This document shows positions 9,382 through 57,569 of a DNA stretch of 57,569 nucleotides, in pieces; the stretch's first letter is position 1; every line of letters starts with the position of its first letter. The stretch comes from Prevotella sp. (GTDB taxonomy: Bacteria > Bacteroidota > Bacteroidia > Bacteroidales > Bacteroidaceae), in the NCBI GenBank assembly GCA_017483185.1, contig JAFULM010000051.1, forward strand, positions 1 to 57,569, read 5' to 3'. Position numbers and translations under genes: made by a program. The notes under the pieces were generated by a model. The model was not told the DNA's origin, did not search any database, and saw only the letters and a program-made list of their open reading frames with translations.

Positions 9382-9556
9382 TCATTTCTGCTTTCCTCCG
9401 CATCCACATCTGTGGAGTGATAATTCGATTAATACCCTCATTAGCCCCTTAAAGACTTCCGAATTAGGTTGGCACATCGTTCACAACCAACGACAGATAT
9501 TGGTGCTTCGAACGGACGGTGTAACGGCAGGGACACGGAAACGTCAGAATAATATC

Positions 9557-9928
9557 AAATTTTTAACATTTCACTTTTCTCCAAAATCGAGACAAAAACG
9601 CCGCGATTTTAACATTGCCATGTTGTTTTCCAATCAAAAAAAATTGAAGGCTGAGCAATAAGGGCCTTATTGCATCACAACGAGCACGCCATTGGTCTGC
9701 AACGGGCACGCCGTCGCAATGCAACGAGCGCCCCGTTGCGATGCAATAAGGCCCTCACGGCAAGACGCAGAATATTTAGAAATTTTTCAATATTACACAT
9801 TCAGTTGATATTCAGCATGTTATGAAAACCGGCGAAAAATCGCAAAATTTGGCCCGAGAATAGGATTCCTCCGAATGATGAACGTTTTGAGAGGCATTTG
9901 TAAAAATTGTTCTGAGTTTTTAACACTT
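9557..9928 (+). repeat. Dispersed 22-bp-ladder element, copy 1
   Basis: First copy of a family also found at 16531-16915 and inverted at 27997-28380. It opens near TTTTTAACATT and closes with GAGTTTTTAACACTT (9914-9928). The core at 9653-9760 is a ladder of 22-bp imperfect units. After a partial first unit, the full units lie at 9669-9690, 9691-9712, 9713-9734 and 9735-9756; the first two end GCACGCC and the third GCGCCCC. The left flank shares GATTTTAACATTG with copy 3. The right flank is the most diverged of the three. It contains no open frame shared between copies. Confidence 0.8.
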
Positions 9929-10037
9929 TATCCCTGACCCCGATTTCATCCGACATGTCACTCCAAATGTCGGGTGAACCTTATATTAACCTAACAAAAC
10001 ACCATTCTTTTTTTGTTAAATAGCGTTAACCACATTG

Positions 10038-14277: not shown

Positions 14278-15063
14278 TCATCCCAACACGACATCGAGCA
14301 CCATCATCAGCGTGAAGCCGACGGCAAAACCGATCGTGTTCAGATTGGAATGAGGCTCTCCGCTGGCCTCAGGAATGAGCTCTTCAACCACGACATATAT
14401 CATGGAACCGGCTGCAAAAGCCAACATATAGGGCATAACAGGGGTCAGCAACGCGGTCAACATTATAACAGCAATACCTCCGAGAGGCTCCACCGCACCA
14501 CTCAGGCTGCCTATCAGGAAGGACCGCAGACGACTATTGCCCTCAGCCCGCATGGGCATCGAGATGATTGCACCTTCCGGTATGTTCTGTATGGCAATGC
14601 CAGCACACATGGTCAAGGCTCCTGCCGCACTTATTTCCGCATCACCCGACATCGCGCCGGCCAGCACAACGCCGACAGCCATGCCCTCCGGTAGATTGTG
14701 GATTGTCACAGCCAGTGACAGCATCGCAGTGCGGGAAAAGTGCGACGGAAGTCCTTCCGGTGTAGTCGTACCCAAATGAAGATGCGGGGTGAGATTGTCG
14801 ACTAATAGCAAAAAGCCTATACCGGCCAAAAATCCGATGGCAGCCGGAGCTACCCGCGCCAATCCTTCCGCTCCGGGGATGAAATCGAGGCTCGGCAGGA
14901 GCAACGACCACACAGAGGCGGCTACCATTACGCCCGATGCAAAACCGAGCAAAGTCTTCCGCACTTGCAGCGACATGTCGTGCTTCATGAAAAACACCAG
15001 CGCGGAACCGAACACTGTTCCGAGAAACGGAATGAGCAATCCTAAAATGATGTCGTATGTCAT
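14278..15063 (-). CDS. ZIP family metal transporter
   Basis: An inner membrane carrier that probably imports zinc or other divalent metals. About eight hydrophobic segments fit in 261 residues. The metal-site motifs of ZIP proteins are intact: HNLPEG (122-127) in one helix and IQNIPEG (158-164) in the next. A histidine-containing loop, LTPHLHLG (91-98), precedes them. It resembles the GufA/ZupT branch. Its ATG overlaps the stop of the upstream protease gene by 4 bases (ATGA), so the two are translationally coupled. Confidence 0.92.
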   Translation of the reverse strand: MTYDIILGLLIPFLGTVFGSALVFFMKHDMSLQVRKTLLGFASGVMVAASVWSLLLPSLDFIPGAEGLARVAPAAIGFLAGIGFLLLVDNLTPHLHLGTTTPEGLPSHFSRTAMLSLAVTIHNLPEGMAVGVVLAGAMSGDAEISAAGALTMCAGIAIQNIPEGAIISMPMRAEGNSRLRSFLIGSLSGAVEPLGGIAVIMLTALLTPVMPYMLAFAAGSMIYVVVEELIPEASGEPHSNLNTIGFAVGFTLMMVLDVVLG

Positions 15064-16412
15064 ATTCTATTCAATTTTTTCACCTTTGTTCCTTTCGTAA
15101 CCCCCTGCCCTAACTCCCGGAGTGTTTTGGGAACCACAAGTTTGCGGAGATTACGGGCGTATGCGAACGCCCCGTTGCCGACAAACGTCACTCCATGCGG
15201 CAGCGTCACCTCGGTCAGACTGTTACACGAGTTGAAGGCGTTTGCACCGATGGTGCGCAACGAGCGCGGCAGCTTGACTTCGATGAGATTGAAGCATCCC
15301 GAAAAAGCTCTTTGACCAATGTGACTGACAAGCGTATGGATGCGTATCTCGTTGAGATGGGAACAACCGGCAAAGGCGTAGTTACCGATTTCCGGCAGCG
15401 TTATAGGCAAGGATATATATGTCAGACGCTCACTTCCACAAAACGCAGAGTCAGGCAATGTCAATATAACACTCTCACTCAAATCGATGATGGCAAGATT
15501 TCCACGACGTGACGACTTGTCGCCACCACCTCCACCAGCCAACCGACGCAACAGGGCGATATCCTCGCGTCCGATACTTCCAGTCACCTTGATGCTCTGC
15601 ATCGTAAGCCAATCATCCTCAGTAATATAGGAAGCCAGACGCCCGGGGCGCTCGACATCCACACGTTTGGTCTTGGGACGAACGGTCTCTGGTGTCACTC
15701 CGGTCACCATCCGCTGGTGAGCGCGAAAGCCGTAGAGAGTATCGGGATGGTAATATCCGTTGCGACGGCCTCCCCACCCCCAGTTGACATGCACAAGCGA
15801 ATCACGACAACCGTCAATGATAAACACGTGGGCATTGTAGGCGCTTTTTTCTCCACGTATGATTACGGGGCGACCGGACCTCAACTCATTGTATATAAGT
15901 GTCTTCCACGCTCTGCTTCCGGATTCGCCAGAATAGAAGTCACGGTCGGAGATGTGCATATAACGGTTATATCCGAAATGGCTTTTCAACCCCGTAACCA
16001 CGCTGTTCAGTTTTGTCGAACTTGCACTCAGCCGATAGTTTGTCTCCGCCGCCGTACCGCAATCGCGTATCAACCGTGCCACGGCATCCTGAACGGCGAT
16101 ATCAAGGGTATCCGTCACGCGGTCGGACATCAGATGCCACTGATAGCGGTGACCGAGACGAACGCTTTGTGACGGCCGACCATAACGACGTATGACTTGC
16201 GACATGACCAACGGTCCACACCCGGCATAAAGATGCTTCTCCACAGAGTCTATCATGACCGTTGGACACATCCGATTGTAAGGATACTCCTGCCCCCACT
16301 CCGTGGTAAGAAGTGGAGCGACCTCCTGCGGAAAGACGTAACCCTGACCTTGGGCTGCAACCGTAGCAAGGAATGTCATGAATGTGACCAATGTTACAAA
16401 TATCTTTTTCAT
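15060..16412 (-). CDS. C10 cysteine protease with LRR_5 repeats
   Basis: A secreted papain-fold protease of peptidase family C10 (streptopain; interpain A and PrtT in oral Bacteroidales). A signal peptide ends near ATVAAQG. The catalytic cysteine is in HLYAGCGPLVMSQV (Cys65 from this start). The histidine is in AYNAHVFIIDG (His195), followed by the diagnostic VNWGWGGRRNGYY. From about residue 320, BspA-like leucine-rich repeats follow, such as IGNYAFAGCSHLNEIRI and IGANAFNSCNSLTEVTL, which may bind host or bacterial surfaces. The pro-domain is very short or absent. The start is ATG 16412 (MKKIF), giving a clean signal peptide; an upstream ATG at 16430 is less likely. No type IX C-terminal domain is seen. 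Confidence 0.88.
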   Translation of the reverse strand: MKKIFVTLVTFMTFLATVAAQGQGYVFPQEVAPLLTTEWGQEYPYNRMCPTVMIDSVEKHLYAGCGPLVMSQVIRRYGRPSQSVRLGHRYQWHLMSDRVTDTLDIAVQDAVARLIRDCGTAAETNYRLSASSTKLNSVVTGLKSHFGYNRYMHISDRDFYSGESGSRAWKTLIYNELRSGRPVIIRGEKSAYNAHVFIIDGCRDSLVHVNWGWGGRRNGYYHPDTLYGFRAHQRMVTGVTPETVRPKTKRVDVERPGRLASYITEDDWLTMQSIKVTGSIGREDIALLRRLAGGGGGDKSSRRGNLAIIDLSESVILTLPDSAFCGSERLTYISLPITLPEIGNYAFAGCSHLNEIRIHTLVSHIGQRAFSGCFNLIEVKLPRSLRTIGANAFNSCNSLTEVTLPHGVTFVGNGAFAYARNLRKLVVPKTLRELGQGVTKGTKVKKLNRI

Positions 16413-16441
16413 GCTCGTGTCGATGTCCATTCGTATTTATG

Positions 16442-16449: not shown

Positions 16450-16530
16450 CTGATAAAATATGAATTCCGGTGACTTCAACATCATTGATTATACTATTTT
16501 AAGTTACTTTTCATGTCATGATAATATCAC

Positions 16531-16915
16531 GAATTTTAACACTTGAAAATCGCTTAAAAAAAGAGCGGCAGAGCCTTGGATTTAACATTTGAGCCTTATT
16601 TTTCAACAAAAAAATTCCAACGCTCGAGCAATAAGGGCCCCGTTAGTCTGCAATAAGCACGCCGTCAGGTGACAACGAGCATGCCGCTGCAAGACAACGA
16701 GCGCCCCGTTGCAGAGCCGTAAGGCCCTTATTGCTTGGAAAAATTTGCGAAATCATTGCACACTTTTACAAGATCTCGTCATAACGCACTGAGATACAGA
16801 GAGAAAAAGATGCACGCGAAATTTTAAAGAATTTGAGAGCAAGGGACCACGTGATGCAGAATTTATGTTAAAATCAAGGTCGTTTGTAAGATTTATTCCG
16901 AGTTTTTAACACTTA
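16531..16915 (+). repeat. Dispersed 22-bp-ladder element, copy 2
   Basis: 385 bp, opening with GAATTTTAACACTTGAAAA and closing with CCGAGTTTTTAACACTT, so both ends carry TTTTAACACTT in the same orientation. Full 22-bp core units lie at 16642-16663, 16664-16685, 16686-16707 and 16708-16729. The core is bounded by a perfect 13-bp inverted repeat, AGCAATAAGGGCC (16627-16639) and GGCCCTTATTGCT (16723-16735). The right flank shares GCACGCGAAATTTT (16812-16825) exactly with copy 3. It lies in the spacer between the protease promoter and the end of the helicase gene. Confidence 0.85.
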
Positions 16916-27708: not shown

Positions 27709-27963
27709 TTATTGTGGCCATGAGCCAGCTTTTATACCCTCGGTGATACCTTCCATTGCCGGAGCACAGAACACGCTGAGCGAAGAGCGGTTGAGAATGG
27801 TCATAACACCGGTCTCGCCACCCTGATTGAGCGAGTTTATGTCCCATGCAAAGGTGACAATGCCATTGTTGACGGCCAGACGGTTGACGTTGCGGAAGAA
27901 AGCCTTGATGGAAGAAACACTTCGTTTCCAGACAAAAAAAACGGATAGCATCCTACAATACAT
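27709..27963 (-). pseudogene. C-terminal remnant of a GH5-like glycosidase
   Basis: The last roughly 60 residues resemble the C-terminal end of family 5 endo-glucanases. FFRNVNRLAVNNGIVTF is followed by AWDINSL, where GH5 enzymes have their late Trp-Asp-Asn block. ETGVMTILNRSSLSVF and PAMEGITEGIKAG follow, matching the usual closing 'family of nucleophilic barrel end' with IFNR...S...ALEGI. The gene reads into GH31 on the same strand, ends in a normal stop, and has no catalytic glutamates left. The sequence upstream of the match (from about 27920) is unrelated, and 30-40 bases later copy 3 of the dispersed repeat begins. This looks like an endo-glucanase/xyloglucanase gene lost by deletion. 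The family call is from pattern memory. Confidence 0.5.
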
Positions 27964-27996: not shown

Positions 27997-28380
27997 AACT
28001 GTTAAAAATTCAGAAGAATCACAACAAAAGCCTCTCCATTTTTGAAGAATTTGAAAATAAAAATCCTGCGGCCGCAAATTCTTCAAAATTTCGCGTGCAT
28101 ATTTTTCTTCTTGACCCTCAGTATGTTACGACAATTTTAGCCAAAATGTGCAATTTTTCCACAGATTTTTCCGAGCCGTAAGGGCCTTACGGCTTTGCAA
28201 CGGGGCGCTCGTTGCTTTGCAACGGCGTGCTTGTTGGAGTCCGATAAGCATGCCATTGCAGACCAACGGGGCCTCTATTGCTCGACCTCCGGATTTTTTT
28301 CACAAAAAAACGACGCGCCAATGTTAAAATCATGACCATGCCACCAATTTTTTGAGCGATTTTCAAGTGTTAAATTCCGG
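27997..28380 (-). repeat. Dispersed 22-bp-ladder element, copy 3 (inverted)
   Basis: 384 bp on the minus strand relative to copies 1 and 2. Read on the minus strand it opens CCGGAATTTAACACTTGAAAA and ends CTGAATTTTTAACAGTT. The core is 28172-28284, again a partial unit plus four 22-bp units, the third ending GCAACGAGCGCCCC. It shares TTAACACTTGAAAATCGCT with copy 2 on one side and GCACGCGAAATTTT (plus-strand 28085-28098) on the other. Its inner end lies 34 bases from the broken GH5-like frame. Confidence 0.85.
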
Positions 28381-28516
28381 GATATTATATTTACACTCCT
28401 GATTTGCTCCTCTCCATTAAGACAACCTGCAAACAAGCTCACATTGTTCTCATCTGCACTGTATTTGCATAATTGATGCCTATGTAAAGATACCTTTTCG
28501 GATTTTAAACACAAAA

Positions 28517-31591: not shown

Positions 31592-31632
31592 AGATGAAAG
31601 CGAAAACCGGTATGACGGCCACGGAGCATGCG

Positions 31633-31720
31633 ATTTTGACTATGAAAACACGTAATTTCGATTATGAAGACATGGCATTTCGATTACGGAGACATGTTAT
31701 TTTGATTATGAAGACATAAA
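31633..31720. repeat. Four tandem 22-bp repeats after the kinase gene
   Basis: Units start at 31633, 31655, 31677 and 31699 with no gaps. The shared pattern is ATTT(T/C)GATTA followed by TGAAGACATG. The last unit runs into the terminator stem. The sequence around the kinase stop codon (TTCGTTGACTGAAGATG) resembles the unit, so the array may have grown from the gene end. Confidence 0.8.
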
Positions 31721-31768
31721 AATAAAGCGGAGAAGCAAGTCTTAAAGACCGGCTTCTCCGCTTTATTT
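31720..31768. terminator. Bidirectional terminator between kinase and thrS
   Basis: A perfect 17-bp stem, AAATAAAGCGGAGAAGC with GCTTCTCCGCTTTATTT, has A-rich and T-rich outer ends, so it works for both converging transcripts. Confidence 0.8.
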
Positions 31769-31791
31769 ATATCAATAAGTGAGTTCCGATA

Positions 31792-40711: not shown

Positions 40712-40737
40712 CGCCGTTGAAACCAATTTAAGGGTAT

Positions 40738-40799
40738 AAAAAAAGGAGTACCGCTGTACTCCAATCTTTGTTAACCTTAAATCTAATACTATGAAAAAC
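40738..40799 (-). ncRNA. Candidate small RNA of about 62 nt
   Basis: The minus strand carries a complete short unit with no gene. A promoter at 40806-40835 predicts a start near 40799. A perfect 7-bp hairpin with 4-base loop (40745-40762, GGAGTAC and GTACTCC) followed by T7 ends it near 40738. The body reads CATAGTATTAGATTTAAGG and GTTAACAAAGATTGG, which I recall as recurring in Bacteroides genomes. The first half is the complement of a generic start region, CTTAAATCTAATACTATG, so antisense action at ribosome-binding sites is conceivable. The hairpin could alternatively end the transcript of the metallohydrolase gene. Confidence 0.55.
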
Positions 40800-40805
40800 A
40801 CACTG

Positions 40806-42673: not shown

Positions 42674-42703
42674 GCGGCTATCGGTTGTTTGGTAAATCTT
42701 TAT

Positions 42704-42773
42704 TTTGAACACAGAGACACTTCAGACACAGAGTAATATTGTCCTCTGTGTCTGAAGTGTCTCTGTGTTCAAA
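42704..42773. repeat. Perfect 30-bp inverted repeat upstream of murB
   Basis: Arms 42704-42733 and 42744-42773 pair without mismatch around a 10-base loop. The arms hold ACACAGAGACACTTCAGA. There is no T-run in either direction. It lies in the 172-base spacer between the DUF4348 gene and murB. Confidence 0.9.
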
Positions 42774-42844
42774 GTATAAACTAATTGTTGCAGCATACTT
42801 ATCAAAGGACCTTAATTATATATCAAAAAACCACCCGACACGGG

Positions 42845-44847: not shown

Positions 44848-44890
44848 ACCGATGTCGGAAACACCAGAAGAAGACGCAAAAGAGTGAAAC

Positions 44891-44942
44891 AAAAATGCAA
44901 ATGGAGCATATGTCCCTAAACATATGCTCCATTTGCATTTTT
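44891..44942 (+). terminator. Perfect 22-bp hairpin after pheS
   Basis: Arms 44891-44912 and 44921-44942 match perfectly around the loop TCCCTAAA. The arms run AAAAATGCAAATGGAGC to GCTCCATTTGCATTTTT, so the outer ends give a T-run on both strands. It probably ends the pheS transcript; it is longer than needed for a terminator. Confidence 0.7.
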
Positions 44943-45292
44943 GACATAGTCCTTTTGATATATATAGCCTTACGTCTACGAACAAAAGTCACACAAGCAA
45001 CCATCACATTTCGTACAACCCCATATTCGCATTTTGCCAACCTCATTTTTATCAATCTCACATTTTGGGTCCTTCCGTCTTTTATCTTTACAAAATTCGT
45101 TCCGGAAAAACTCTCGTTTCCGGCTGTCTCCCATACCAATGAGGCCCTCTCGGCCCGCCATACCATCTGTCAGGCATGCAAAAAAACACTCGAAAAAATG
45201 CCGTCGGTATGCCGTAAGGGCCCCACGGCTCTTCAAAAACGAAGAAATCAGCGACTTTTTGCTTGCCGTTTTTGAGCAAAAAAGAGGTCGTC
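44943..45292. other. Spacer after pheS with degenerate repeat pieces
   Basis: 350 bases with no convincing gene. Several overlapping frames exist, but none has a family pattern. GCCGTAAGGGCCCCACGGC (45211-45229) and GAGGCCCTCTCGGC (45141-45154) look like scraps of the dispersed repeat core. Confidence 0.4.
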
Positions 45293-45404
45293 GGCGAGCA
45301 ATAAGGCCCTTATTGGGTCACAACGAGCACGCCGTCAGATTGCAACGGGGCGCTCGTTGCAATGCAATAACGGCCTCGTTGCAGAGCCGAGAGGCCCTTA
45401 CGAC
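45293..45404 (+). repeat. Dispersed 22-bp-ladder element, core-only copy 4
   Basis: A core in the same register as copies 1-3: a partial GAGCAATAAGGCCC unit, then full 22-bp units to about 45398, including one ending CAACGGGGCGCTC and one ending CAATAACGGCCTC. The last unit, GTTGCAGAGCCG, matches the final unit of copy 2 for twelve bases. The flanking TTTTAACACTT ends of the other copies are absent, so this is a diverged or truncated member. Confidence 0.75.
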
Positions 45405-45771
45405 AGCCCCTCAAACTCCACAAAAAAGCAAGAGCCTTCGGTTGCGATTGTAAGAGACTGTACACCAATAAATTACAAAAACAGCGATTTCCCGGCCGTA
45501 AAAAAGTCCGCTTTTCCACCTTCGCAGAATTTGAAAATTTGGGAGCATGGCAGGAAAATTTTGAAAAGTGGCCTTGGATTTTGCCTTAAAATTCAGATTT
45601 TTTCGGACATTCGCAGTTGTTGATGATCATGACCAATGCCCAAAGAGACTCTTCTTATGTCTTTGTTTGGACAAAAAAGTTCCCGAAAGTCTTTGTTCAA
45701 CTTTCGGGAACTGCTCAAAGCAGGCACATCATTATGACTAATACCTACGTAACACTTGTGTTAATACGTAC
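45405..45771. other. Spacer between repeat core and small peptide gene
   Basis: 367 bases without a supported gene. A hairpin, TTCCCGAAAG with CTTTCGGGAA (45680-45689 and 45702-45711), lies on the downstream side of the minus-strand small peptide gene and could end its transcript. Confidence 0.45.
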
Positions 45772-55065: not shown

Positions 55066-56172
55066 ATGAAGACTTTATTATCAATAACTGCCCTGATGGT
55101 CACAGGAAGCATTTTCGCAGCCTGCCAGTCGGGCACCTACCGCATAACCGGTAGCGGCGACATGCTGCAGGAAGGTGACACGCTGTTCCTAACCAACGAC
55201 TTCATGACCGGCGCACCGGTTGACACCGTTATTGCCAAAGCCGGGAAGTTTGAACTCACGGGGACGGCCGACTCAACGTTCATGTGCCTTATCTACAGCA
55301 AGAAGAATCAGGAAGTGATGAGCTCGCCGTTCTTCATCGAGGAAGGCTCTATCGAGCTTACGCTGTCAGACAACCCGAAAAACAGAAGGGTTTCCGGTTC
55401 TTCGCTCAATAATGAATGGCAGGAACTGAACGACAGTCTCAGCCTTATCGGACAGCAGTTCAGCATGATGGCCGAAAATATGGCCACCAACAATTTGACC
55501 GCCGAGGAGGCCCAGGCATTGAACGAGAAACAACAGAAACTCGTCAAGCAATGGCAGGACATAACCTTCCGTTATGCGAAGAAGAACGCAGACAACGAAC
55601 TGGGCTATTTCCTGATTACGCAGTTTTACGATCCTGACTGCAAGGACGCTGCTTCAAAGCAGCAACTGATAAGCATGTTGCCCAAAAACACGCAGGATAG
55701 ACCGCTCGTGAAAACCATTCAGACAAAACTCAACAGTTCAAAGGCCACATCAGAAGGTAACAAGATGAAAGATTTCACGATGAACGACATCAACGACCGC
55801 CCCATGTCCATACTCAGCGAAATTGCCAAAAACAAGATCACGGTGATTGACTTCTGGGCAAGCTGGTGCGGACCGTGCCTCAGGGAAATGCCGTCGATGG
55901 TCGAGATGTACAAAAAGTACAAGAACAACGGCCTCGGCATTATCGGCATCTCACTTGACTCGCGCAAATCCGATTGGGAGAATGCGACAAAGTGTTTCTT
56001 CATCGAATGGCCGCAAATTTCGGATCTGAACGGCTGGAACAACGCCGCCGCACAGATGTTCAACGTCCAGTCCATCCCCTACACCATCGTCGTCAGCAGC
56101 GACGGAACGATTCTGAAGAAAGGACTGCGAGGCAGCGAGCTGGAAGAGTTTGTCGCGTCACAACTGAAATAA
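55066..56172 (+). CDS. DUF4369-thioredoxin lipoprotein, TlpA-like (copy 1)
   Basis: A 368-residue periplasmic thiol-disulfide reductase. The signal peptide ends in a lipobox, SIFAACQSG, so it is probably a lipoprotein. The first part (about 25-130) is the DUF4369 beta domain common in Bacteroidetes (GDTLFLTNDFMTGAPVDTV). A helical linker follows (about 130-230). The C-terminal AhpC/TSA-thioredoxin domain carries WCGPC at 267-271 (FWASWCGPCLREMPSMVEM), followed by GIIGISLDSRKSDWENA. It may reduce or isomerise disulfides, or serve cytochrome maturation; the substrate is unknown. A paralogue starts 24 bases downstream. Confidence 0.92.
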   Translation: MKTLLSITALMVTGSIFAACQSGTYRITGSGDMLQEGDTLFLTNDFMTGAPVDTVIAKAGKFELTGTADSTFMCLIYSKKNQEVMSSPFFIEEGSIELTLSDNPKNRRVSGSSLNNEWQELNDSLSLIGQQFSMMAENMATNNLTAEEAQALNEKQQKLVKQWQDITFRYAKKNADNELGYFLITQFYDPDCKDAASKQQLISMLPKNTQDRPLVKTIQTKLNSSKATSEGNKMKDFTMNDINDRPMSILSEIAKNKITVIDFWASWCGPCLREMPSMVEMYKKYKNNGLGIIGISLDSRKSDWENATKCFFIEWPQISDLNGWNNAAAQMFNVQSIPYTIVVSSDGTILKKGLRGSELEEFVASQLK

Positions 56173-56195
56173 TCAACCATACCCGACAACACATC

Positions 56196-57323
56196 ATGAA
56201 CAAACTATTTATATCCATAATAGGACTGCTGGCCGCATCTGAAATATTTGCGGTCCGGCAGCCTGACGGATACAGGATAATGGGTGAAGCTGCGATGCTG
56301 AACGACGGCGACACTCTTTTCGTTACTGACGACCCGGTCAAAGGCACTCCAACGGACACGCTCATCGTAAGGAACGGAAAGTTTGAACAAGCTGGAAAGA
56401 TTGGCTCCACTGAGTTCCGCCTCGTGTACAGCACACATCGCAGAGGAATATATTCGCCTTTCTTCATCGAGCCAGGCACAATCAGCATAAGACTGTCCGC
56501 CAAACCGGAAGAGACAAGGGTGGAAGGCACTCCGACCAACGACGCATGGCAGGAGATGAACGACAGCGTGATGGAGATAAAGCGCAGGATTGACCGTCAC
56601 TATGAAAACAATAATCTGAGCGACGAGGAACAGCAACAGGAGTTCAAAGAGCTGAAAGCACTGCACGCTCAATATAAAGCTCTCGTTACGGACTATGCAA
56701 GAAAGAATGCAGACAACGAGTTCGGCTATTTCCTTCTTATGGCATACAGCGATATGGCCGGCAGCATCGGACTGCATGAGCCGAACGGACTGATTGACAT
56801 CGACACACGGTTGGAACTGATAAGCAAATTGCCGCATGACAAGCTGAAACGCCCCGCCATGAAACGTACCGTGGAAAAGCTCCACCAAATGAAAGCTACG
56901 GCCGAGGGCAATGTCATGCCTGACTTCACGATGGACGACATCAACGGAAAACCGGTCAATGCACTTACGGAAATCAGCAAGAACAAGCTCACCATCATTG
57001 ATTTCTGGGCAAGTTGGTGCGGACCATGCCGCATGGATATGCCCGACATGGTAAGCTTGTACAACACATATAAAAACAAAGGCTTGGGAATATTGGGCGT
57101 TTCGCTTGATTCCAAACGTGAGGCATGGGAGTCAGCGAGCAAAAATCTCGGAATTAGCTGGCCTCAGGTGTCCGATTTGAAAGGATGGAACAATGCTGTC
57201 GCACAGCTGTTCAACGTCCAGGCTATTCCACAGACCATAGTCGTCGGCAGCGACGGAACGATTCTGAAGAAAGGACTGCGGGGCAGCGAGCTGGAAGAGT
57301 TTGTCTCGTCGCAACTGAAATAA
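56196..57323 (+). CDS. DUF4369-thioredoxin protein, TlpA-like (copy 2)
   Basis: A 375-residue paralogue of the upstream gene. The layout is the same: DUF4369 domain (GDTLFVTDDPVKGTPTDTL), helical linker, then the thioredoxin domain with WCGPC at 274-278 (FWASWCGPCRMDMPDMVSL). The last 30 residues are nearly identical in the two copies (GSDGTILKKGLRGSELEEF). A difference is the signal peptide: the lipobox cysteine of copy 1 is replaced (SEIFAVRQPDG), so this copy is probably free in the periplasm. The ATG at 56196 is chosen because it begins the signal peptide; a longer frame from 55974 overlaps copy 1 and is rejected. Confidence 0.92.
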   Translation: MNKLFISIIGLLAASEIFAVRQPDGYRIMGEAAMLNDGDTLFVTDDPVKGTPTDTLIVRNGKFEQAGKIGSTEFRLVYSTHRRGIYSPFFIEPGTISIRLSAKPEETRVEGTPTNDAWQEMNDSVMEIKRRIDRHYENNNLSDEEQQQEFKELKALHAQYKALVTDYARKNADNEFGYFLLMAYSDMAGSIGLHEPNGLIDIDTRLELISKLPHDKLKRPAMKRTVEKLHQMKATAEGNVMPDFTMDDINGKPVNALTEISKNKLTIIDFWASWCGPCRMDMPDMVSLYNTYKNKGLGILGVSLDSKREAWESASKNLGISWPQVSDLKGWNNAVAQLFNVQAIPQTIVVGSDGTILKKGLRGSELEEFVSSQLK

Positions 57324-57433
57324 ACTCCACCAAATAAGCCACTTCACCCGACATTCGGAAGATATCCGACCTATACGCTGAATCTATTTTTATCTATTGC
57401 TGTCCGGTAAAACAGATTTCCGTACGGCATGCT

Positions 57434-57538
57434 CAATCTGTTGTAGGGACATAGTCTTGTCTTTGTCCGCAAATAACATATTGATATCCAATCTTTTTCT
57501 TGCGGACAAAGACAAGACAATGTCCCTACAACAGATTG
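57434..57538. mobile_element. MITE-like element with 39-bp inverted arms
   Basis: Arms 57434-57472 and 57500-57538 pair at 38 of 39 positions around a 27-base loop. The outer end reads CAATCTGTTGTAGGGACAT and the inner end TCTTTGTCCGCAA. There is no coding capacity. The word TAGGGACAT also occurs in the element at 28517-28604. Confidence 0.7.
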
Positions 57539-57569
57539 GGCTTTTCAGATGTATGGTAGGAGGTAAGCC

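Follow-up and report, generated by a model that had tools for sequence, protein, structure and literature searches.

The window, the whole stretch of 57,569 nt of Prevotella DNA analysed here, carries a non-coding element in four places. Copy 2 is a full element of 404 nt on the plus strand (16511–16914; nhmmer E = 4.3e-105) and served as the query of our BLAST search. It is bounded by terminal direct repeats, TGTCATGATAATATCACGAATTTTAACA on the left (16514–16541) and TTTGTAAGATTTATTCCGAGTTTTTAACA on the right (16883–16911), each located by a pattern match with one mismatch (control patterns, 0 matches). Between them lies a core (16628–16734) of five units with a 22-nt period, the last of which is shortened (16628–16649, 16650–16671, 16672–16693, 16694–16715 and 16716–16734), followed on the same strand by two boxes: box 1, TTGCACACTT (16756–16765), with TGCACA invariant in 35 aligned copies, and box 2, ATGCACGCG (16810–16818), with TGCA invariant in 35 aligned copies. 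A minus-strand gene for a Peptidase C10 protein with BspA-type leucine-rich repeats (15060–16430) adjoins this copy.

Copy 3 (27997–28397, minus strand, 401 nt; nhmmer E = 1.8e-106) is also a full element and is recovered with copy 2 as BLAST query (E = 4.8e-57). Copy 1 (9541–9929, plus strand, 389 nt; nhmmer E = 2.2e-72) is diverged, and its TTGCAC box 1 is not recognisable. These three copies are homologous end to end, and the 407-position profile, which has them among its source sequences, finds all of them. Copy 4 (45257–45602, plus strand; nhmmer E = 2e-29 to profile positions 79–397) is not a source sequence of the profile and belongs to a distant subfamily, with a core array recognisable in the alignment, and arms and ends that show no clear alignment. 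The original prediction, of a dispersed non-coding family with a minisatellite-like core inside conserved flanks, was right: three copies are present where it placed them, the ends that it saw in the same orientation are direct repeats of about 30 nt, and its GC-rich core is the array of five 22-nt units. Its figure of three full copies was far too low, given the fourth, distant copy in the window and the 65 elements located in the genome. Its constant length of 372–385 bp stands as to constancy and not as to the values, since the left end lies about 15–20 nt further out, giving 389, 404 and 401 nt for copies 1–3.

We compared the window's own genome (G000; 2.47 Mb, 75% complete) with those of two sister species, G314 and G144, both of them metagenome-assembled Prevotella. 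A genome-wide search for further copies with these ends had been named beforehand as a check, and many were found. BLAST of G000 with copy 2 gave at least 49 rows (best 40 of 180 candidates scored), and a 141-nt profile found 116 places at E ≤ 1e-4 (150 of 1,859 candidates scored; 51 rows listed), a count that may include opposite-strand matches to palindromic units. We located 65 elements in the fetched stretches of G000 and 42 in those of each sister. Full-length elements make up 120 of the 136 found by the profile; scaled to its 407 positions, 104 of the 120 measure 405–408 nt, 14 measure 415–419 nt and 2 measure 394 nt. The median identity among 31 copies from G000 is 67%, and only 2 of 465 pairs exceed 90%, one of them with identical flanks; the constant length therefore does not come from youth, and there has been no recent burst. 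Subfamilies of copies carry shared diagnostic letters. Two loci on different G000 contigs (L008 and L009, on C58 and C11) agree completely in the element and in about 1.5 kb of either flank, which reflects either a recent duplication or an assembly artefact.

The copies are intergenic and non-coding and lie in both orientations. A coding element is ruled out by stops in all six frames (108 copies, mean 3.5–5.4 per frame), in line with the earlier remark that no frame is shared. The gaps that hold elements (n = 118, simple ORF caller) are divergent in 42 cases, same-direction in 62 and convergent in 14; neighbouring genes are thus oriented −+ 42, ++ 31, −− 31 and +− 14 times, with no fixed orientation. 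The genes beside ten sites shared by the three species appear to be of ordinary metabolic, envelope, translation and chaperone types, including glutamyl-tRNA synthetase, methylmalonyl-CoA mutase, DXP synthase, Cpn10, PorP/SprF and an MgsA-like ATPase, and we found no recombinase or candidate reader among them. One copy searched by blastn against phage and plasmid collections, and one degenerate arm pattern searched exactly against viral contigs, gave no match, and a phage or plasmid origin was set aside. A replichore bias hinted at by the top matches in P. ihumii is unsupported, as a 400-kb sample has elements in both halves and on both strands.

Across 118 copies, the terminal 45 nt score higher as direct repeats (mean local score 21.0) than as inverted repeats (17.2), the latter exceeding the shuffled score (13.2, s.d. 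2.7). The ends of these copies are direct repeats of about 30 bp, and the terminal inverted repeats that mark MITEs were not found. Nor was a target site duplication: a flank word of at least 6 nt is shared in 2.5% of the 118 copies, against 3.2% for shuffled partners. We found no transposase associated with the elements, and the 16 listed right-end matches that lacked a profile match (end patterns, three draft genomes) are non-coding elements or remnants, with no gene-bearing version. An automatic search for empty sites among the fetched loci returned mostly occupied sites with variable spacers; only window site 2 is truly unoccupied, in G314, whose matching blocks lie about 31 nt apart there. 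The DNA that G144 has at this site is unrelated. No insertion junction can be read there, because about 150 nt of further unshared DNA adjoins the element in the window. Copies in both orientations, together with this one unoccupied sister site, make some mobility likely in the spread of the element. The suggestion of a nonautonomous mobile element was accordingly borne out in part: dispersal, both orientations and the unoccupied site agree with it, and the missing inverted repeats, target duplication and associated transposase do not, nor does the inheritance of most detectable sites across three species.

Comparison with sister genomes, the other check named beforehand, revealed homologous elements at the same sites. 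Between G144 and G314, 31 common sites (at least one flank matched) carry elements in the same orientation, 21 of them with both flanks matched, and 1 carries them in the opposite orientation; of the 42 G144 copies fetched, 30 are matched in G314 by a partner in the same orientation. Between G000 and the sisters, there are 30 pairs in the same orientation, involving 18 of the 65 G000 elements, and 1 in the opposite orientation (11 and 0, respectively, with both flanks matched). These are lower bounds, with 42 loci fetched per sister. Since independent re-insertion would give both orientations, the positions are inherited, and most detectable element sites are inherited across the three species. 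Both sisters have an element at window site 1, where the downstream flank alone is shared; at window site 3, synteny stops at 27912 and the fetched sister stretches hold no element. For one G144 element (L182), the flanks find their matches at two separate G314 elements (L159 and L146), and a rearrangement therefore passed through elements.

The sequences of the copies tell of a different history from their positions. G000 copies are no closer to their positional partners (median identity 0.674, 13 pairs) than random interspecies pairs are to each other (0.668 and 0.666). In a tree, the positional partner ranks only 22nd to 107th of 117 in similarity at eight shared sites, and a split (support 0.83) sets 39 of 41 G000 copies, together with two others, apart from the rest. 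Among the eight, L105 has a G144 copy as its nearest. G000 copies cluster by genome and not by site; therefore, dispersed copies have changed in concert since G000 split off, by gene conversion or shared selection. Between G144 and G314, partner copies are closer (median 0.88) than other pairs (0.71).

Indels are about four times rarer in elements than in the adjoining spacers. Between G144 and G314, we counted 74 gap events in 10,305 element sites (26 pairs at matching sites) and 240 in 7,630 spacer sites (44 of 52 spacer pieces usable), whereas substitutions differ little (12.1% in elements, 13.8% in spacers). Two pairs (L191/L130 and L168/L151) contribute 36 of the 74 element events, and unalignable spacers were left out, which biases the comparison against the contrast.

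The class extends across Prevotella, with a conserved right-arm motif and changing cores. The 141-nt profile matched 22 of 398 Prevotella genomes at E ≤ 1e-3, and a 92-nt arm profile that draws on eleven genome groups matched 54, of which 18 had at least five matches (10 candidates scored in each); among 294 other genomes of the order, 5 had one or two weak matches. A degenerate arm pattern (TTGCACAYTT, N15, YDAY, N4, TG, N4, TMAR, N10, BTGCACRC) found 31 stretches in 257 Gb of named genomes, all titled Prevotella, Xylanibacter caecicola or Prevotellaceae. Other Prevotella retain this right-arm motif, the spacing of the boxes is constant across the genus, and an array precedes box 1 in these species too, but with mostly other letters. 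Two oral-type genomes (G100 and G017) also carry elements of this class. Lag 22 gives the best autocorrelation among lags 8–40 in all 19 genomes analysed. Between the eleven groups (sister-trio pairs left out), box similarity reaches z = 4.4–10.3 in all pairs, a conservation that comes partly from data selection, because the boxes were the search target; core similarity stays below z = 4 in 44 of 52 pairs. The other 8 pairs, with core z of 4.6–14.2, fall into clusters such as Prevotella sp. 885, X. caecicola and G238. Within genomes, six groups have a core z of 21–70, whereas G358 has 5.7 and G288 has 6.7. With 8 similar pairs and these two low values, cores turn over gradually in clades and are not unique to each species.

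Elements with unrelated arms share a core. In G000, subfamilies A1 and B are at chance in the left arm (0.43, shuffled 0.43) and in the right arm (0.50), and resemble each other in the core (0.71, shuffled 0.47) and at the right end (0.80). In P. ihumii, 20 sampled stretches of 20 kb, 400 kb in all, contain five elements of the first type, and this species also has a second type of about 225 nt (L309, L314, L317 and L323–L325), with different ends and other arms, and the same core words as the first. The end motif of the second type, AAATAGAACAA, recurs at a spacing of 213–214 nt in 7 of 9 further loci inspected, and 8 of the 9 have 23 as their best lag. One core alphabet is therefore common to different carriers within this genome. 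By eye, a TAAC..TG..TTA-like stretch stands in front of the second-type core.

A dyad scan for compensatory covariation over 570 centres singled out column 169, at the midpoint of unit 3 (z = 5.8, against 3.0 for the runner-up), with excess pairing of unit 1 to unit 5 and of unit 2 to unit 4. The covariation is small (3,522 Watson–Crick cells against 3,381 expected), and neither strand prefers G·U (524 G–T against 649 A–C cells). Since G–T is not favoured, RNA accounts for this no better than a DNA hairpin or correction by template switching does. When single-stranded, the core can probably fold into one nested hairpin of about 110 nt, in which unit 1 pairs with unit 5 and unit 2 with unit 4, leaving unit 3 at the tip; it would be placed at the DNA level because neither strand favours G·U. 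General RNA-like helices are unsupported, as 8-nt antiparallel windows are not clearly above the parallel control (0.061 and 0.058). Independent local palindromes are likewise unsupported as the pairing unit: within-unit Watson–Crick pairing does not exceed independence. The self-complementarity of single units is not significant in most species. Both orientations are seen for units 2 and 3, with G..G or C..C at positions ±2 from the centre, where Watson–Crick combinations make up 3% against 33–34% expected. At an apparently orthologous locus in G100 and G017 (L254 and L268), matching changes were seen by eye in two inverted half-units (..CTCTTTT/AAAAGAG.. and ..CGGTTTT/AAAACCG..), as if core words swap as pairs.

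Two repeat families of the same order were met in the literature, and nothing else among the matches listed was recognised as this element. PINSR is described as a 188-bp repeat of Prevotella intermedia and P. nigrescens, with 177 and 184 copies, intergenic, without a protein or terminal inverted repeats, with about three quarters of its sites common to two strains and some inversions or translocations between copies (Naito et al., PMC4755523). Going by that description, it shares with the present class its genus, intergenic location, many copies, lack of coding capacity and of terminal inverted repeats, and sites common to close relatives. The two differ in length (188 bp against about 400, or about 225 for the second P. 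ihumii type) and in range: PINSR is described, from PCR and a database search, as limited to one clade (PMC4755523), whereas the present class is found again and again in the genus, each time with other cores. Every descriptive feature but length matches, and a relationship between the two is possible. Should PINSR belong to the class, the restriction to one clade reported for it would reflect core divergence and not absence elsewhere, and the present class may be the wider setting for a repeat described as limited to one Prevotella group.

BrickBuilt of Porphyromonas gingivalis, named in the original prediction as the closest idea, has a 23-nt unit in 1–22.8 copies at about 19 loci, with IS5-like terminal inverted repeats in part of its copies (Klein et al., PMC4596501). 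As a layout, the analogy is fair: both are intergenic Bacteroidales elements with a leader, a repeat array of 22–23-nt units and a tail. Membership is unsupported on the features compared. BrickBuilt as described has a variable number of 23-nt units, whereas the present class has a 22-nt period, five units in aligned copies, a fixed length and direct end repeats, and the 12-nt BrickBuilt inverted repeat (GAGACCTTTGCA-like; table 2 of PMC4596501) has at least three mismatches in and around all four window copies.

We conclude that these elements form a maintained, concertedly evolving class and not a decaying MITE, because their positions are inherited, copies resemble those of their own genome and indels are about four times rarer. 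Fixed length, the 22-nt period, direct end repeats, inherited positions and orientation, core homogenisation within a genome, core turnover between species and suppressed indels are established. The usual explanations for repeats between bacterial genes are transposon debris and REPIN/RAYT populations; in the present class, the inheritance of positions, the deficit of indels, a fixed period with replaced letters and a core common to unrelated arms point to a maintained system undergoing genome-wide concerted change. Our main reading, to which we give a probability of roughly 40%, is that a putative factor, with a specificity that drifts between species, reads the core in trans as an array of five sites, and that the ends and boxes form an older mobilisation apparatus. 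The working part of the modular, ~400-bp non-coding element would then be its five-unit, 22-bp-period core, and the putative reader a DNA-binding protein or recombinase; because its specificity would differ between species, each genome would hold one core alphabet whatever the arms. The boxes and end repeats would be the older, shared part of the elements. Direct-repeat-ended units would have spread earlier by mobilisation in trans, copies today would mostly pass down at fixed sites, and their likeness and constant length would be upheld by gene conversion, by selection through the shared putative factor, or by both. A testable prediction is that the reader would prefer the core of its own species. 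Against this trans-read core count the small covariation, the 8-nt windows that hardly differ from their parallel control, single units that lack significant self-complementarity in most species, the ordinary neighbour genes, the eight of 52 core-similar pairs and the low within-genome core z of G358 and G288, the use of the boxes as search target, and the period of 23 in the second P. ihumii type. A broader version is tentative: genus-wide 22-bp-period arrays would sit on several unrelated carriers, their letters switching genome-wide with a fast-evolving putative trans-acting reader, such as a partition, nucleoid or recombination protein. If true, bacteria would have in it a counterpart to satellite repeats that co-evolve with the proteins binding them.

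A plain non-autonomous transposon, MITE-like, direct-repeat-ended and without host function, amplified in species-specific bursts from a changed master copy, would leave copies scattered by the dozen between genes on both strands, subfamilies recognisable by diagnostic letters in common, the window site that lacks an element in G314, and copies at rearrangement breakpoints such as G144 L182 against G314 L159 and L146. We consider it unlikely, as no terminal inverted repeat, target duplication or associated transposase was found, only 2 of 465 pairs exceed 90% identity (one with identical flanks), 30 of 42 fetched G144 copies have a same-orientation G314 partner, indels are suppressed and box spacing is constant across the genus; nor does a burst explain copies that keep their position yet resemble those of their own genome. 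REPIN/RAYT systems show GTAG adjoining a hairpin. In a REPIN-like system, nested-hairpin repeats would be kept by a RAYT, a Y1 tyrosine transposase, and the present elements, numbering dozens of intergenic, inherited, hairpin-forming and genome-specific repeats, do resemble the inherited intergenic populations of hairpin-forming repeats described for REPINs (PMC8049555). A REPIN consists of two inverted REPs, whereas the present element is a 400-bp composite with boxes and direct end repeats. The distribution of the transposase (PF01797), present in 7 of 18 genomes with elements and 5 of 10 without and absent from G314 (99% complete), and the lack of an element beside any of its 15 matches speak against membership and largely refute such a system, which we regard as very improbable.

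The concerted evolution could also be pure gene conversion without a reader. Old copies would be homogenised neutrally by conversion and by template switching in the inverted repeats of the core, with no function; units 2 and 3 in both orientations would be the footprint of hairpin or conversion flips, and the concentric covariation without G·U bias and the grouping of copies by species at shared sites fit as well. Conversion alone leaves unexplained the suppressed indels relative to adjoining spacers, the 22-nt period that all 19 genomes have despite their unrelated letters, and the core common to elements with unrelated arms, and the closeness of G144–G314 partner copies (0.88, against 0.71 for other pairs) speaks against it and implies that conversion is slow; a purely neutral origin thus appears rather doubtful. 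A family of structured RNAs (sRNAs or UTR elements) transcribed from each copy, also raised in the original prediction, draws on the weak concentric compensatory covariation in the core, the constant length and the fold of one copy (−149.6 kcal/mol, z = −5.6; 0 of 100 shuffles as good). It is improbable, since there is no G·U preference on either strand (524 against 649 cells), no fixed orientation to neighbouring genes (n = 118) and no Rfam match for copy 2 at E ≤ 1, and core letters are replaced across species. At the gathering threshold, the window matches only FopS (RF04319), a Bacteroidetes paralogous sRNA, elsewhere, at 40735–40801 on the minus strand (78.4 bits).

The window contains further repeats apart from the trans-read array proposed here. 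Another 22-nt tandem repeat, in four copies (CATGTAATTTCGATTATGAAGA-like, 31627–31736), has letters unrelated to the element core and is directly followed by a GC-rich inverted repeat (31716–31772). Long inverted repeats, all with short loops, lie at 44890–44943 (24-nt arms, 100% identical), 42701–42776 (33 nt, 97%) and 57431–57541 (53 nt, 89%). Finally, two tandem stretches within long ORFs at 55741–57323, 72–80% similar and 1,151 nt apart, are probably duplicated genes.
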